Shown here in pieces: positions 831 to 43,410 of a DNA stretch of 64,000 nt. The notes under the pieces are model-generated. The model saw only the letters and a program-made list of their open reading frames with translations. It did not search any database and was not told the DNA's origin. Made by a program: the position numbers and the translations under genes. Source of the DNA: an uncultured Trueperaceae bacterium (lineage in GTDB: Bacteria > Deinococcota > Deinococci > Deinococcales > Trueperaceae); assembly GCA_937873495.1 (NCBI GenBank), contig CALMXZ010000014.1:1-64000 (forward strand), given 5' to 3'. Numbering within the stretch: position 1 is the stretch's first letter; each line of letters begins with the position of its first letter.

Positions 831-3402
<2,572 letters not shown>

Positions 3403-37427: not shown

Positions 37428-38930
37428 CTACTGCACGTCTTGCAGCTCGGCGAGGATCTTCTCCCGGTCCGCTTCCCCGTACTCCTTGAGTGGGTCGACG
37501 GCCTTGAGGTAGGAGGCGACGTCGAGGAGGTGCGGAGGCAGGGTCATGAGACCGTGGGTCGTCATTACGTCCATGCGGCTCGTCTCGTAGAGCGCGCCCT
37601 GCCAGCCGTCGGCTTCGATGCGCTCGAGGGTGAACCGGTGGACGGTGGCCTGCATGAGCGTGTGGACCAGGTCCCGCTGGGTTGGAGACAGGGCCTCCCA
37701 GGCGTCCGCGGCGCGCTGCCTGCGGGCGCGGTGCAAGGCGTCGGCGATGGTCGTGGCGATGCTGCGGGCCTGCTCGCGCGTGAGCGGCTGCGGGCCGCTG
37801 CTATCCTGCTCGTCTTGCCTGGGCGGCTCGACGCCCTGCTGGAGCAGGCTGTTGACGAACCCGCCTAGGTTGTAGATCGGCCTGCCGCCCAGCTCCGCCC
37901 GCGCTTGCAGCACCCGGGCGTAGGCGACCAGGTCGAGGACGCGCTGGGCACCGTAGCGGGCGACGGCGCGCTCCGGGTCCTGGCCCCAGCCGATGTCGCG
38001 CAGCGCGTCCGCGGCCTGGAGCTCCTTGAGGAGCTGCTCCTTGTCCGCCTTCTGGGCGACGCGCTTCGCGAGGCTCGCCGGCAGGCGCACGCGCGGCTGG
38101 AAGACGTCGTTGCGCCTGATCTGGAACGACACGCGCTGGAACTTACGACCTACCTTGTCGGGCTCGTAATCGAAGCTCAGGCACGTGTAGGCGCTGAACT
38201 CCTCCTGCGCCTTGTCGAGGACGTAGCGGAAGTCCTTGAAGCGCTCGTACTTGCCGTCGAGACCGAGCCTGAGCTTGAGGTCGTCGACGTCGAAGATGAG
38301 CTGCGAGCGTTCGCCGGCGTAGCTGGCCGTGTAGAGCACCTCGAACAGCCGCATGCTGTTGAAGCTCTCGAACGAGAGGAGCTGCTCGGTGGGGATGATG
38401 CTGAAGTCGCGCCTGAGCTGGAGAAGGTAGGGCTTGAGCCGCGGGTGGATGTGGATCTCGATGGCGGCCATCTCACCGCTGTCACGCCCGTTGTCGTAGC
38501 GCGCCTCAGAGACCCACTGGAACATCACCCAGTCGCCGTTGGGCTCCTTGATCTGGATGGTCTGCTCCAGGAGTTCCCGCGCCGACTCCTCGATGCGCGA
38601 GTAGATGCTCTTGCCGCTGATGTTGAAGAGTTGGGCGTACTCCCAAGCCGTGATGCGGATCGGCTCGAGCGTGAGGTCTTCCTTGGTGATGTCGGAGAGC
38701 GCGAGGACGAGCAGGCGCTTCGTGAGGATGCCCATCTCCTGCCGGCTGAGCGCCAACGGGTTGGCCTGGGTGATGGAGAGCGACGGGCCGTAGCTCCTCC
38801 GCTGCGGAGCCCGTTGCTTACTCTTGGTCCGTTGCGTGCTGGTCCGTTGTGAGCGGAGCTTGCCGGCCGGCTGCGCCTGCCGCCCAGCCGCCTTGTTACC
38901 CGTCTCACCGAAGGACGCCTCGTCGCTCAT
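37428..38930 (-). CDS. Plasmid-type replication initiator, Rep_3/RepB family
   Basis: 500 residues. A basic low-complexity N-terminus (1-50) leads into two winged-helix domains: SITQANPLALSRQEMGILTKRLLVLALSDI, then ITAWEYAQLFNISGKSIYSRIEESARELLEQTIQI, and LSFESFNSMRLFEVLYTASYAGERSQLIFDVDDLKLRLGLDGKYERFKDFRYVLDKAQEEF. This is the pi/RepE-type fold that binds iterons and opens the origin. The upstream non-coding region holds iterons. Its C-terminal 150 residues are an extra extension. This gene strongly indicates a plasmid, chromid or integrated replicon. Confidence 0.88.
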   Translation of the reverse strand: MSDEASFGETGNKAAGRQAQPAGKLRSQRTSTQRTKSKQRAPQRRSYGPSLSITQANPLALSRQEMGILTKRLLVLALSDITKEDLTLEPIRITAWEYAQLFNISGKSIYSRIEESARELLEQTIQIKEPNGDWVMFQWVSEARYDNGRDSGEMAAIEIHIHPRLKPYLLQLRRDFSIIPTEQLLSFESFNSMRLFEVLYTASYAGERSQLIFDVDDLKLRLGLDGKYERFKDFRYVLDKAQEEFSAYTCLSFDYEPDKVGRKFQRVSFQIRRNDVFQPRVRLPASLAKRVAQKADKEQLLKELQAADALRDIGWGQDPERAVARYGAQRVLDLVAYARVLQARAELGGRPIYNLGGFVNSLLQQGVEPPRQDEQDSSGPQPLTREQARSIATTIADALHRARRQRAADAWEALSPTQRDLVHTLMQATVHRFTLERIEADGWQGALYETSRMDVMTTHGLMTLPPHLLDVASYLKAVDPLKEYGEADREKILAELQDVQ

Positions 38931-39143
38931 CGCCTCTCCCCTACCCTATCGAAGCCACTCGCCGCCATCGACTCGTGCTCGCTATGCGGCGCTCAGCTCG
39001 GGCTGTCACCCGGACGCCCGTCGCCGACCGCCGGTCCGGTGCCTCAAAGATGATACGGCTAGTGGGGATGACCGGTCAACATTTCCCCTATTCTTCCCAT
39101 CACGCGCGGAGCGCTGCATTCAGTTCCCCCGTTTCCCCGCTAC

Positions 39144-39247
39144 GGTACCCGCGTCTACCCTTTCGGTACCCAACGTTTCCCAGCGACGTACCCCGCTTGT
39201 CCCGATCTGGTACCTCACTCCTCCCGCGGCGGTACCCTAGTCCACCC
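39144..39247 (+). repeat. Iteron array A1: five copies, 21-22 bp period
   Basis: Copies start at 39144, 39165, 39187, 39209 and 39231, two helical turns apart. The pattern is GGTACCC-N3-TYNWCCC; the third copy has CGTACCC. Spaced on one face of the DNA directly upstream of the rep gene, they are the likely Rep binding sites of a replication origin. Confidence 0.85.
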
Positions 39248-39284: not shown

Positions 39285-39370
39285 TCCGCTCTCCATTAAA
39301 GAGAATACCAATCCTCCTGAAGAAAACACCGCAATGCGTTGATGCTGTGATCAGAGTAGAACCCAAACCC
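39285..39370. other. AT-rich segment between iteron groups, possible unwinding element
   Basis: Bases around CCATTAAAGAGAATACCAAT and GAAGAAAACACCGC are much richer in A/T than the surrounding region. It lies between iteron groups A1 and A2, where the first DNA melting of an iteron origin is expected. No clear DnaA box was seen. Confidence 0.45.
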
Positions 39371-39471: not shown

Positions 39472-39587
39472 AGTACCCATGCCCTCCCCTTTCGACGCGC
39501 AGTCACCGGTCAGTACCGCGGCTTCCCCACTAGCTGCGCAGGAGGCGTCTTGCCAAGCGTCCGTGGCGCCGGTACCCTGGTTTCCCC
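39472..39587 (+). repeat. Iteron group A2: dispersed full-length copies
   Basis: AGTACCC-ATG-CCCTCCC at 39472-39488, AGTACCG-CGG-CTTCCCC at 39512-39528 and GGTACCC-TGG-TTTCCCC at 39571-39587 fit the 17-bp iteron RGTACCC-N3-TTTCCCC. Partial copies (CGCTACCC near 39425 and GGTACCC at 39444) precede them. Spacing is irregular, unlike group A1. Confidence 0.75.
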
Positions 39588-40137
39588 GTTTCGCTATCTA
39601 GTCCCCTGTCTTTCCCCGGTTTTCCTGTCTTCGGGCCGTTGGTGATGTATCGGCGAGGGCCAGGTCCAAATGTTGTCCGAAGGGCGGTGAAGCGGGCGGG
39701 CGTGGCGAGTCGGCGTGAGTCGGCGCGACGACCGGTGTCGCGGCCGGGCGTTGCGGGTAGACGTGGCCAAGGCGTGGCCAGTAGGCGTAGGTAGTAGACG
39801 TGGCGAGCAAACGGGGCACGCGGGGGCGGCTCCCGTATCGGATCGCGCTCGGCGCGATCGGGTGCTGACCCTAGCTGCGCCGGCCCAGGCGCCAGGTGGC
39901 GAACTACGTTGCCAGCGGGATCCAGCGCCTTGCCGTGCTGGAGCGAAGGAGTGGCGACGACCCGCCGGGTCGTCGCCACTCCTTCCGTCTCGTACCGCCT
40001 TGCTCCTCTCCGTGGGGACGAGGGAGCGGATGTGGGGATGTTCGGGTACTTGCTCGGCTCGGTGGGTCGGGTAGCCGGCGCTTCTGAAGCGAAATGGGGG
40101 GTGGCGGGTACTGGCGGGGTTGTCGCTGAACTTGCTC
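39588..40137. other. Non-coding segment between iterons and parS-like sites
   Basis: Open frames here are Arg/Pro-rich on both strands and show no family, so I read no gene. It contains a 19-bp perfect hairpin at 39945-39985 and repeats of GTGGCGAG and GTAGACGTGG near 39700-39810. Confidence 0.5.
39945..39985 (+). other. 19-bp perfect hairpin upstream of parA
   Basis: GAAGGAGTGGCGACGACCC, GCC, then the exact complement. No gene ends here, so it is not a normal terminator; it could be a replication-related secondary structure or an antisense-RNA terminator. Confidence 0.65.
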
Positions 40138-40153
40138 GCCATAACGTTATGGC
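40138..40153. promoter_or_regulatory. parS-like palindrome, copy 1
   Basis: GCCATAACGTTATGGC, a perfect 16-bp palindrome about 345 bases upstream of parA. A second near-perfect copy is at 40269-40284. ParB-type centromere sites have this form and place. Confidence 0.65.
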
Positions 40154-40268: not shown

Positions 40269-40284
40269 GCAATAACGTTATGGC
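40269..40284. promoter_or_regulatory. parS-like palindrome, copy 2
   Basis: GCAATAACGTTATGGC, one mismatch from copy 1, 131 bases further downstream and 213 bases before parA. Confidence 0.6.
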
Positions 40285-40496: not shown

Positions 40497-41300
40497 GTGA
40501 AGGTGCTGACGTTCTTCAACCATGCAGGCGGGGTGGCCAAGACCAGCACGGTCCGCGACGTCGGTTACGTTCTCGGCGAGATGGGCAGGCGCGTGCTGCT
40601 CATCGACGTCGACCCGCAGGCGAACCTCACACGGTGGCTGGGCGTCGAGGACGACATCACCCTGGCGCAGACCATCTACCCTGCCGTGCTCGGGGATTCC
40701 GACAGGGACGGCGACGCCGGCGCGCGCACTGGTGAGGAGGACCTCGTGCTGCCGGAGCCGCTCGCCGCGCACGGCATGCACCTCATCCCGAGCAACCTGA
40801 ACATCGCCATCGTCGAGCGTGAGATCCTCAGCGTGTTCATGGGCGTGGTCAGGTTGCGCGAAGCCGTCAGGCGCCTCAAGGGTTACGACTACGTGCTCAT
40901 CGATCCGCCGCCCAGCCTAGGTCAGCTCTCGGCATTGGCTGTCGTCGCCGCGGACCGGATCGTCGTGCCCCTGCCGACGAACCGCAAGGGCCTGGACGGG
41001 ATCCCGACGGTGATCAGGATGGTCCGCGAGTACCGCAAGGCGGCGCGCAACCTCGACATCGCGCTCTTCGTGCTCACGCAACACGACAGGCGGACGCGCC
41101 ACGACCGCGACAGCCTGGAGATCATCAGGGAGCAACTCTCGGCCGTGGCGCCGGTCTCCACGCCGTTGGCGTCCAGGCCGGCGTACTACTCGGACGCGCA
41201 GGTTCAAGGCAGGCCCATCTCGGTGTACGCTCCCGGTAGCGAGGCGGACCTGGAGATCAGGCGCGTGACCGCCGAGTTGCTCGACCGACTGGAGGGGTGA
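40497..41300 (+). CDS. parA: ParA-type partition ATPase
   Basis: 267 residues. Deviant Walker A region reads FFNHAGGVAKTSTVRDVGY: the signature Lys of KGGxGKT is Ala, while GGVAKTS keeps the P-loop Lys. Switch I/II: LLIDVDPQANLTRWLG and YDYVLIDPPPSLGQLSALAVVAADRIVVPL. GTG 40497 follows AAGGAGG by 11 bases. Separates plasmid or chromosome copies together with ParB, whose gene begins 4 bases after the stop. Confidence 0.93.
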   Translation: MKVLTFFNHAGGVAKTSTVRDVGYVLGEMGRRVLLIDVDPQANLTRWLGVEDDITLAQTIYPAVLGDSDRDGDAGARTGEEDLVLPEPLAAHGMHLIPSNLNIAIVEREILSVFMGVVRLREAVRRLKGYDYVLIDPPPSLGQLSALAVVAADRIVVPLPTNRKGLDGIPTVIRMVREYRKAARNLDIALFVLTQHDRRTRHDRDSLEIIREQLSAVAPVSTPLASRPAYYSDAQVQGRPISVYAPGSEADLEIRRVTAELLDRLEG

Positions 41301-41304
41301 AGCG

Positions 41305-42261
41305 GTGGCGAAGAAGCGGAAGAACGAACTCGATCGCGCCGCCGTGTTCGGCGCCATCCTCGGCGAGATAGAGACTGGTGTGGAGACCCAGGCCGCGACC
41401 GGGGTCGGCTTGTCGGACCTGCGCTATAACGATAGCCAGCCGAGAAAGCATTTCGACAACGCTGCGCTGAGTGATCTGGCGGAGAGCATCCGCGAGCGCG
41501 GCGTGCTGGAGCCGATCATCGTCAGACGCGTCGGTACGGGCTACGAGGTCGTGGCCGGTGAGCGCAGGGCGCGCGCCGCGCGCATGGCGGGCTTGAGCGA
41601 GGTGCCCGCCGTGATCGTCGAACTCGACGACCGCGAGGCGCTCGAGATCGCCATCACCGAGAACCTCCAGCGCGAGGACCTTAACGCGGTGGAGGAGACG
41701 GAGGCCGTGCTCGGCCTGCTCGAGCTCGTGCTCGAGGCGCCCCGGGCGGACGTGGTGGCGCTCCTCCAAGCGCTCTATGGCGAGGAGCGGGGTAGGGGCG
41801 GCTCGCGACCGATCGACCGCGCGCGCCGCGAGGAGACGCTTGGCATCTTCAGGCGGCTGGGGCGGTTCAGCGTGTCCTCGTTCGTCAGCAACCGGCTGCC
41901 CATCCTGGAGTTCCCTCCCGAGTTGCTCGATGCCGTCAGAAGCGGGCAGCTGGCCTTCACCAAAGCGCAAGCCATCGCGCGCCTGGAGGACCGCCGCGCG
42001 CAGCGACTCTTGCTTGCCGAGGCGGTGGGGGAGGACCTGTCGCTCAGCCAGATCAGGCGACGGATCACGGAGCTGCGTCAGGGGGACCGCCGGGCTGTAA
42101 GCAGCAGTTCCGCGGCTGGCGTCTCACCCGACGCTCAACGGCTAGTGACGAGCACCAAGCGCCTGCTCAACCGGCGCAGGCTGGCTGGCCTCGGAGCCGC
42201 CAAGCTAGGGCGGGTCACTGAGCTGTTGGACGAGCTGAACCGGTTGCTGGTCGAGGATTGA
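41305..42261 (+). CDS. parB: ParB/Spo0J-type centromere-binding protein
   Basis: 318 residues. ParB N-domain: DLRYNDSQPRKHFDNAALSDLAESIRERGVLEPIIVRRVGTGYEVVAGERRARAARMAGLSEVPAVIVELDDREALEIAITENLQREDLNAVEE, with GERRxR (CTPase) motif and ENLQREDL. HTH-like LQALYG... FSVSSFVSNRLPIL then the C-terminal dimer part. GTG 41305. Together with ParA and two palindromes upstream it forms a complete parABS system. Confidence 0.93.
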   Translation: MAKKRKNELDRAAVFGAILGEIETGVETQAATGVGLSDLRYNDSQPRKHFDNAALSDLAESIRERGVLEPIIVRRVGTGYEVVAGERRARAARMAGLSEVPAVIVELDDREALEIAITENLQREDLNAVEETEAVLGLLELVLEAPRADVVALLQALYGEERGRGGSRPIDRARREETLGIFRRLGRFSVSSFVSNRLPILEFPPELLDAVRSGQLAFTKAQAIARLEDRRAQRLLLAEAVGEDLSLSQIRRRITELRQGDRRAVSSSSAAGVSPDAQRLVTSTKRLLNRRRLAGLGAAKLGRVTELLDELNRLLVED

Positions 42262-42871: not shown

Positions 42872-42985
42872 GGGAGACGCGGGGTACTCGCAGGTTGAAC
42901 TGGGGAAACTAGGGTACTGGGTCCGGCGTGAAGTACTTCACCTTCGATCCAAGGCGCTTGGGGCTGGTGGGAAAGCCGTGGTACC
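42872..42985 (-). repeat. Iteron group B, minus orientation
   Basis: On the minus strand: AGTACCC-CGC-GTCTCCC (42888-42872), AGTACCC-TAG-TTTCCCC (42918-42902) and GGTACCA-CGG-CTTTCCC (42985-42969). A plus-strand partial copy is at 43010-43026. They match the 17-bp iterons before rep but in opposite orientation, 3.3 kb away on the far side of parAB-bcp. Confidence 0.75.
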
Positions 42986-43023
42986 GACATAGGTAACTGA
43001 GGAACCGAAGGTACTTCGTGGTT

Positions 43024-43073
43024 CCCGCGATCGTCCTGATGGTCGGTTAGGAGACCATCAGGACGATCGCGGG
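43024..43073. other. 21-bp perfect inverted repeat after bcp
   Basis: Arms 43024-43044 and 43053-43073 (CCCGCGATCGTCCTG... and its complement) with an 8-base centre GGTTAGGA. The longest perfect hairpin in the window. It may end the bcp transcript, but no T-tract follows; it lies between iteron copies. Confidence 0.7.
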
Positions 43074-43078
43074 GGCTA

Positions 43079-43230
43079 GCCTGCTCCGCGTCCGTACGGA
43101 CCACCCGGCGGCGACTGCGCCAGTGAGGCCGCCCACGCCGCCTGCTCCGCGCCTGTGCGGGCCACCACTGCGGGTCGACGCCGGCGCGCTCGCTGAACCC
43201 GCCTGCTCCGCGCCCGTGCCAACCACCAGC
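43079..43230. repeat. Three direct repeats with 61-bp period
   Basis: GCCTGCTCCGCGNCNGTNC, with ACCACC a few bases on, starts at 43079, 43140 and 43201. About 25-30 bases per unit are conserved and the rest is variable. No reading frame seems to use them. Confidence 0.6.
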
Positions 43231-43345
43231 CGTCGGCCGGTTCTGGCCGCTGAGGATCGGTCGACCCGCTAGGGCCGTCGGTCGCAGCGGAGTTGGAACC
43301 GCCGTGGACGGGGACGGCCTCGAAGGGGCGCGCGAGTTGATATGA

Positions 43346-43410
43346 GGGGAAAAAGCGGTACTTGCGCTCCGACGCCGGGGCGATGGCGCTCTCGGTACCC
43401 GCATTTCCCC
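43346..43410. repeat. Iteron group B, facing pair
   Basis: Minus-strand AGTACCG-CTT-TTTCCCC at 43362-43346 and plus-strand GGTACCC-GCA-TTTCCCC at 43394-43410. The pair is in opposite orientation just before the stop of the dnaE2 gene. Confidence 0.7.

Follow-up and report, generated by a model that had tools for sequence, protein, structure and literature searches.

Introduction

The closest described origins are those of the iteron replicons F (RepE), R6K (Pi) and pPS10 (RepA), which combine a WH1-WH2 Rep_3 initiator, direct iterons phased at about two helical turns, an adjoining AT-rich stretch, inverted half-sites in the rep promoter and extra iterons elsewhere. All of these traits recur at a locus of an uncultured Trueperaceae bacterium that we analysed within a 64,000-nucleotide stretch of one contig (hereafter the window). 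It differs from the three replicons in iteron sequence, in a C-terminal Rep extension of ~220 aa, in iteron clusters outside the array (three over 4 kb, one of which adjoins a candidate parS), and in having no strict-consensus DnaA box. Among second chromosomes, the RctB-dependent origin of Vibrio cholerae chromosome 2 carries six head-to-tail 12-mers with 10-11 bp between them, extra regulatory sites near parAB and a known crosstalk between ParB and the initiator (PMC6090056). The six head-to-tail sites and the additional sites near parAB are alike in the window, whereas no GATC or 39-mer was seen in the motif, the initiator is a Rep_3 protein by Pfam and the host belongs to another phylum.

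Within the same phylum, the cisII and cisMP elements of Deinococcus radiodurans have origin activity and consist of direct repeats that precede parAB (PMC7671480). However, these repeats are 18 bp long and of unrelated sequence, no Rep_3 protein has been reported for them, and binding there has been shown for DnaA and ParB. The megaplasmid of Thermus thermophilus HB27 has repA beside parAB, flanking direct repeats and an essential par system (PMC4409726), with a parS (AAGGACGCGTCCTT) that differs from the palindrome described below. A review places iteron chromids in beta- and gammaproteobacteria (PMC6090056). The locus presented here offers candidate cis-sites (origin array, operator and parS) for a lineage without a reported second replicon in the literature searched.

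Results

The iterons lie upstream of a Rep_3 gene and in front of an AT-rich stretch (Table 1). An initial annotation had recognised five repeats, the last five of cluster A, and these are present with spacings of 21, 22, 22 and 22 bp. Its literal pattern, GGTACCC-N3-TYNWCCC, is matched perfectly by two of these copies, and each of the remaining three departs from it at one position. A sixth copy, AGTTCCCCCGTTTCCCC, precedes them; it is degenerate here and orthologous to a good copy in most relatives. Within each iteron, the conserved blocks RGTMCC and TYCCC are separated by about one helical turn, and the consensus over 17 loci reads (C/G)(G/A)GT(A/C)CC(C/G)C-N3-(T/C)T(T/C)CCC. The proposal of a new 17-bp Rep site is well supported as far as the iterons of a Rep protein are concerned and otherwise only partly right, since the true period is 21-22 bp and the sites number six plus about 11 outlying ones. 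As in Rep_3 replicons, direct repeats of ~17-22 bp adjoin rep at a phasing of about two turns. That no iteron of this sequence had been described agrees with our literature searches for it, which gave nothing relevant.

Table 1. Features of the replication and partition locus in the window (positions are those of the window; single numbers are iteron start positions).
Feature	Position	Strand	Evidence or remark
ligA, NAD-dependent DNA ligase	831..2879	-	NCBIfam equivalog PRK07956, 797 bits (cut-off 369)
rep, Rep_3 initiator, 500 aa (WH1, WH2 and ~220-aa C-terminal helical extension)	37428..38930	-	Pfam
rep promoter and candidate operator	39050..39088	-	TTGACC (39074-39079), 18-nt spacer, TATCAT (39050-39055)
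Cluster A, six head-to-tail iterons	39122, 39144, 39165, 39187, 39209, 39231 (39122..39247)	+	spacing 22-21-22-22-22
AT-rich stretch, candidate duplex-unwinding element	39292..39351	.	58% AT versus 35% in the intergenic region
Cluster B, four direct iterons, irregular spacing	39472, 39512, 39571, 39600 (39472..39616)	+	matrix scan, pattern
Cluster C, two inverted iterons, parA side	40034-40050, 40096-40112	-	matrix scan, pattern
16-bp palindrome GCCATAACGTTATGGC, candidate parS	40138..40153	.	second copy with one mismatch at 40269-40284
parA	40497..41300	+	Pfam AAA_31, E=2e-32
parB	41305..42261	+	Pfam ParB_N, E=4e-30; HTH_ParB
Cluster D, five iterons	42872, 42902, 42969, 43346 (-), 43394 (+) (42872..43410)		between bcp and error-prone polymerase gene

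The array is not due to chance. A matrix trained only on the loci of other genera scored eight sites between rep and parA at more than 12 bits, against a mean of 0.04 and a maximum of two in 500 Markov shuffles of this region. This cross-genus test was the one counted, and a null for the six-copy score was disregarded because its matrix had been trained on the same loci. An equal frequency of the motif throughout the genome had been named as grounds for rejecting the site; the scan, run with the refined pattern RGTMCC-N6-TYCCC, instead revealed enrichment on one contig, with 11 of the 14 exact matches in the 3.4-Mb genome falling on the 79.8-kb contig of the window (2.3% of the genome).

The rep product matches PF01051 (E=4e-23) and PF21205 (E=2e-12), i.e. 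the WH1/WH2 architecture of Rep_3 initiators, and its AlphaFold model (mean pLDDT 74.5) matches the RepE-operator, Pi-iteron and RK2-type Rep-iteron (Rep-iteron-DUE) structures. Residues 285-500 form a conserved helical C-terminal extension not found in RepE-type proteins. Inverted iteron half-sites occur within the rep promoter, where a 25-bp inverted repeat read from the sequence, GGGGAT-N13-TTTCCC(C) at 39064-39088, straddles the -35 box and is a candidate site of Rep autoregulation. Inverted half-sites over the promoter beside a phased array are the layout of Rep_3 origins and autoregulated promoters. An AT-rich region likewise adjoins the array, as judged by composition only. A strict consensus search, which a degenerate box could escape, found no DnaA box in the 17 loci; a DnaA box at the origin is not universal among Rep_3 replicons. 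The minimum of the GC skew of the contig lies near 27 kb, away from the array at 39 kb.

Much of this organization is shared by related loci of Trueperaceae and Deinococcota. The six-copy geometry of 22-21-22-22-22 was found in 17 of 17 related rep loci, which share kinship and are hence not independent trials, and it was the best among 1,024 spacing combinations in the seven of these loci that were tested. In each of the 17, 29-45 nt separate the array from the most AT-rich 60-bp window beyond it; ahead of the array, at 49-57 nt, 15 have a 25-bp inverted repeat of the iteron half-site (GGGGAA-N-TTTCCC or TTCACC) over the rep -35 box. To the right of parAB follow bcp and the gene for an error-prone DNA polymerase III alpha subunit, and the order rep-parAB-bcp-error-prone polymerase is common to four genera. 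More distant Rep_3 relatives in the same family have arrays of other sequence with a 21-22 bp period in the same place, and in a Geobacillus plasmid the iterons are of yet another kind, with a period of 20-22 bp. Since other Rep_3 proteins have different iterons at 20-22 bp, a private sequence is expected for a divergent Rep_3 protein; the iteron sequence itself is therefore no surprise and represents one more case of a known type of origin. No plasmid record was found to share this DNA, plasmid Rep matches were all below 60% identity (22-33% among the matches listed), and no relatives were found among viral contigs.

Outside the array, cluster B follows the AT-rich block and has corresponding copies in relatives, the inverted pair of cluster C also occurs in those relatives whose stretch includes the region, and cluster D is found in two congeners and another genus as well. 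Inside cluster D, a strong inverted repeat, gcgatcgtcctgatggtc...gaccatcaggacgatcgc (43030-43075), may be the terminator of the convergent genes.

Discussion

Position, phasing, the inverted half-sites in the rep promoter, the AT-rich block and conservation lend strong support to the initial reading of the repeats as Rep iterons. On these sequence features, we regard 39122-39247 as the array at which an iteron-controlled theta replicon initiates (probability about 0.9). We infer that the rep product, as a monomer, most likely occupies all six iterons, whose phasing would set neighbouring molecules next to each other on the same face of the helix, and that bound Rep would open the AT-rich stretch. 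As a dimer, it most likely binds the inverted half-sites that overlie the rep promoter and thereby represses rep. By analogy with incC-type loci, clusters B, C and D likely hold the copy number low, either by titrating Rep or by handcuffing, in which they would pair with the array at the origin. ParA and ParB would then segregate the copies at the nearby palindrome.

While the iteron origin is of a known type, the part worth following is the nature of the molecule that it might replicate. The single-copy ligA on the same contig as rep is the only recognised DNA ligase in the genome, in which no ATP-dependent ligase was found. Moreover, nine genomes from four genera have both genes on a single contig, at a distance of 1.3 to 35 kb; ligA was not seen in six of the 39 genomes of the family, in some because of fragmentation. 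A congener (G001) is represented by a single 2.92-Mb contig with dnaA. This contig is a closed chromosome, since an identical 100-bp sequence occurs at both ends and a long reading frame crosses the join. This chromosome holds neither rep nor the neighbouring block, and neither an NAD-dependent nor an ATP-dependent ligase was found on it. The simplest reading is that rep and ligase reside on another molecule, which binning did not group with this chromosome. We found no copy of the replicon as a closed circle: the 79.8-kb contig has no overlap at its ends, and all rep contigs are shorter than 98 kb except for one gapped scaffold (G021). The GC content is 67.3%; 31 kb sampled from other contigs had 69.4%.

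The origin could also be real but a relic or integrated, with the rep module situated in the main chromosome beside ligA and driving no separate replicon. The ligA gene is normally chromosomal, and a related rep (37% identity) lies within the 4.3-Mb sequence of G021. However, the latter is a scaffold with 100-N gaps, for which reason it was set aside as a case of a chromosomally integrated origin, the closed chromosome of the congener lacks rep, ligA and their surroundings, and an intact rep frame, array geometry and parS kept across genera are not what one would expect of a relic. An integrated or decayed origin thus appears unlikely.

The replicon combines plasmid-type replication and partition genes with a core gene that is chromosomal in other species (ligA, here the sole ligase). 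It is probably a chromid rather than a dispensable plasmid, as it carries the only recognised DNA ligase. If true, this would be an iteron chromid of Deinococcota in which an essential replication gene has moved to a plasmid-type replicon and made that replicon indispensable. With somewhat more reserve, we favour a bipartite genome in several Trueperaceae genera, where a Rep_3 iteron replicon with parABS would be a true second chromosome that goes back to their common ancestor, holds the only ligase and maybe couples initiation with segregation.

The adjoining parAB genes raise another explanation, namely that the array serves ParB as a parS-like site. This has been proposed for the iterons upstream of parAB on chromosome II and the megaplasmid of D. 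radiodurans, where ParB2 and ParB3 bind such repeats in vitro (PMC7671480). Yet the window offers a separate candidate for this role. With at most one mismatch, GCCATAACGTTATGGC has only two sites in the 3.4-Mb genome, both before parA, and the palindrome is present in 14 of 14 related loci scanned. In a second family of the order (Thermaceae-like loci), four genomes carry it inside parB or next to it; their ParB is ~45% identical, and no Rep match was obtained in the stretches fetched from them. The palindrome hence tracks ParB across families, not Rep, which counts for a separate parS, and GCCATAACGTTATGGC is likely this parS; literature searches for its sequence gave nothing relevant, and it is apparently unreported there. 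The array, on the other hand, adjoins rep, its half-site makes up the candidate rep operator, and more distant Rep_3 relatives without a detectable parA or parB match in the fetched stretches still have arrays beside rep, all of which renders a ParB-binding function of the array very improbable. The distance from the palindrome to an inverted iteron is 24 nt in the window and 3 nt in all six loci of one genus. Rep sites beside the centromere palindrome suggest that initiation and segregation may be coupled, and the locus provides a natural case of initiator sites set against a centromere.

That the repeats are only operator sites through which a transcription factor controls rep or parA, without any role as an origin, is hardly credible: they do sit upstream of a promoter, but six sites at two-turn phasing with an AT-rich block, and the further sites beyond bcp, in a convergent intergenic region without a promoter, speak against it.

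Two observations concern the surroundings of rep elsewhere. The rep of the G021 scaffold has its own iterons, ACCCTAGATYNCTCCC, at 21-22 bp (L050:9273-9440) and lies beside bcp without parAB. In other genera, the neighbourhood of rep includes a DNA-repair cluster with SRAP peptidase, ligA and DNA polymerase X besides the error-prone polymerase (L093:8126-15266, G020 contig 65).
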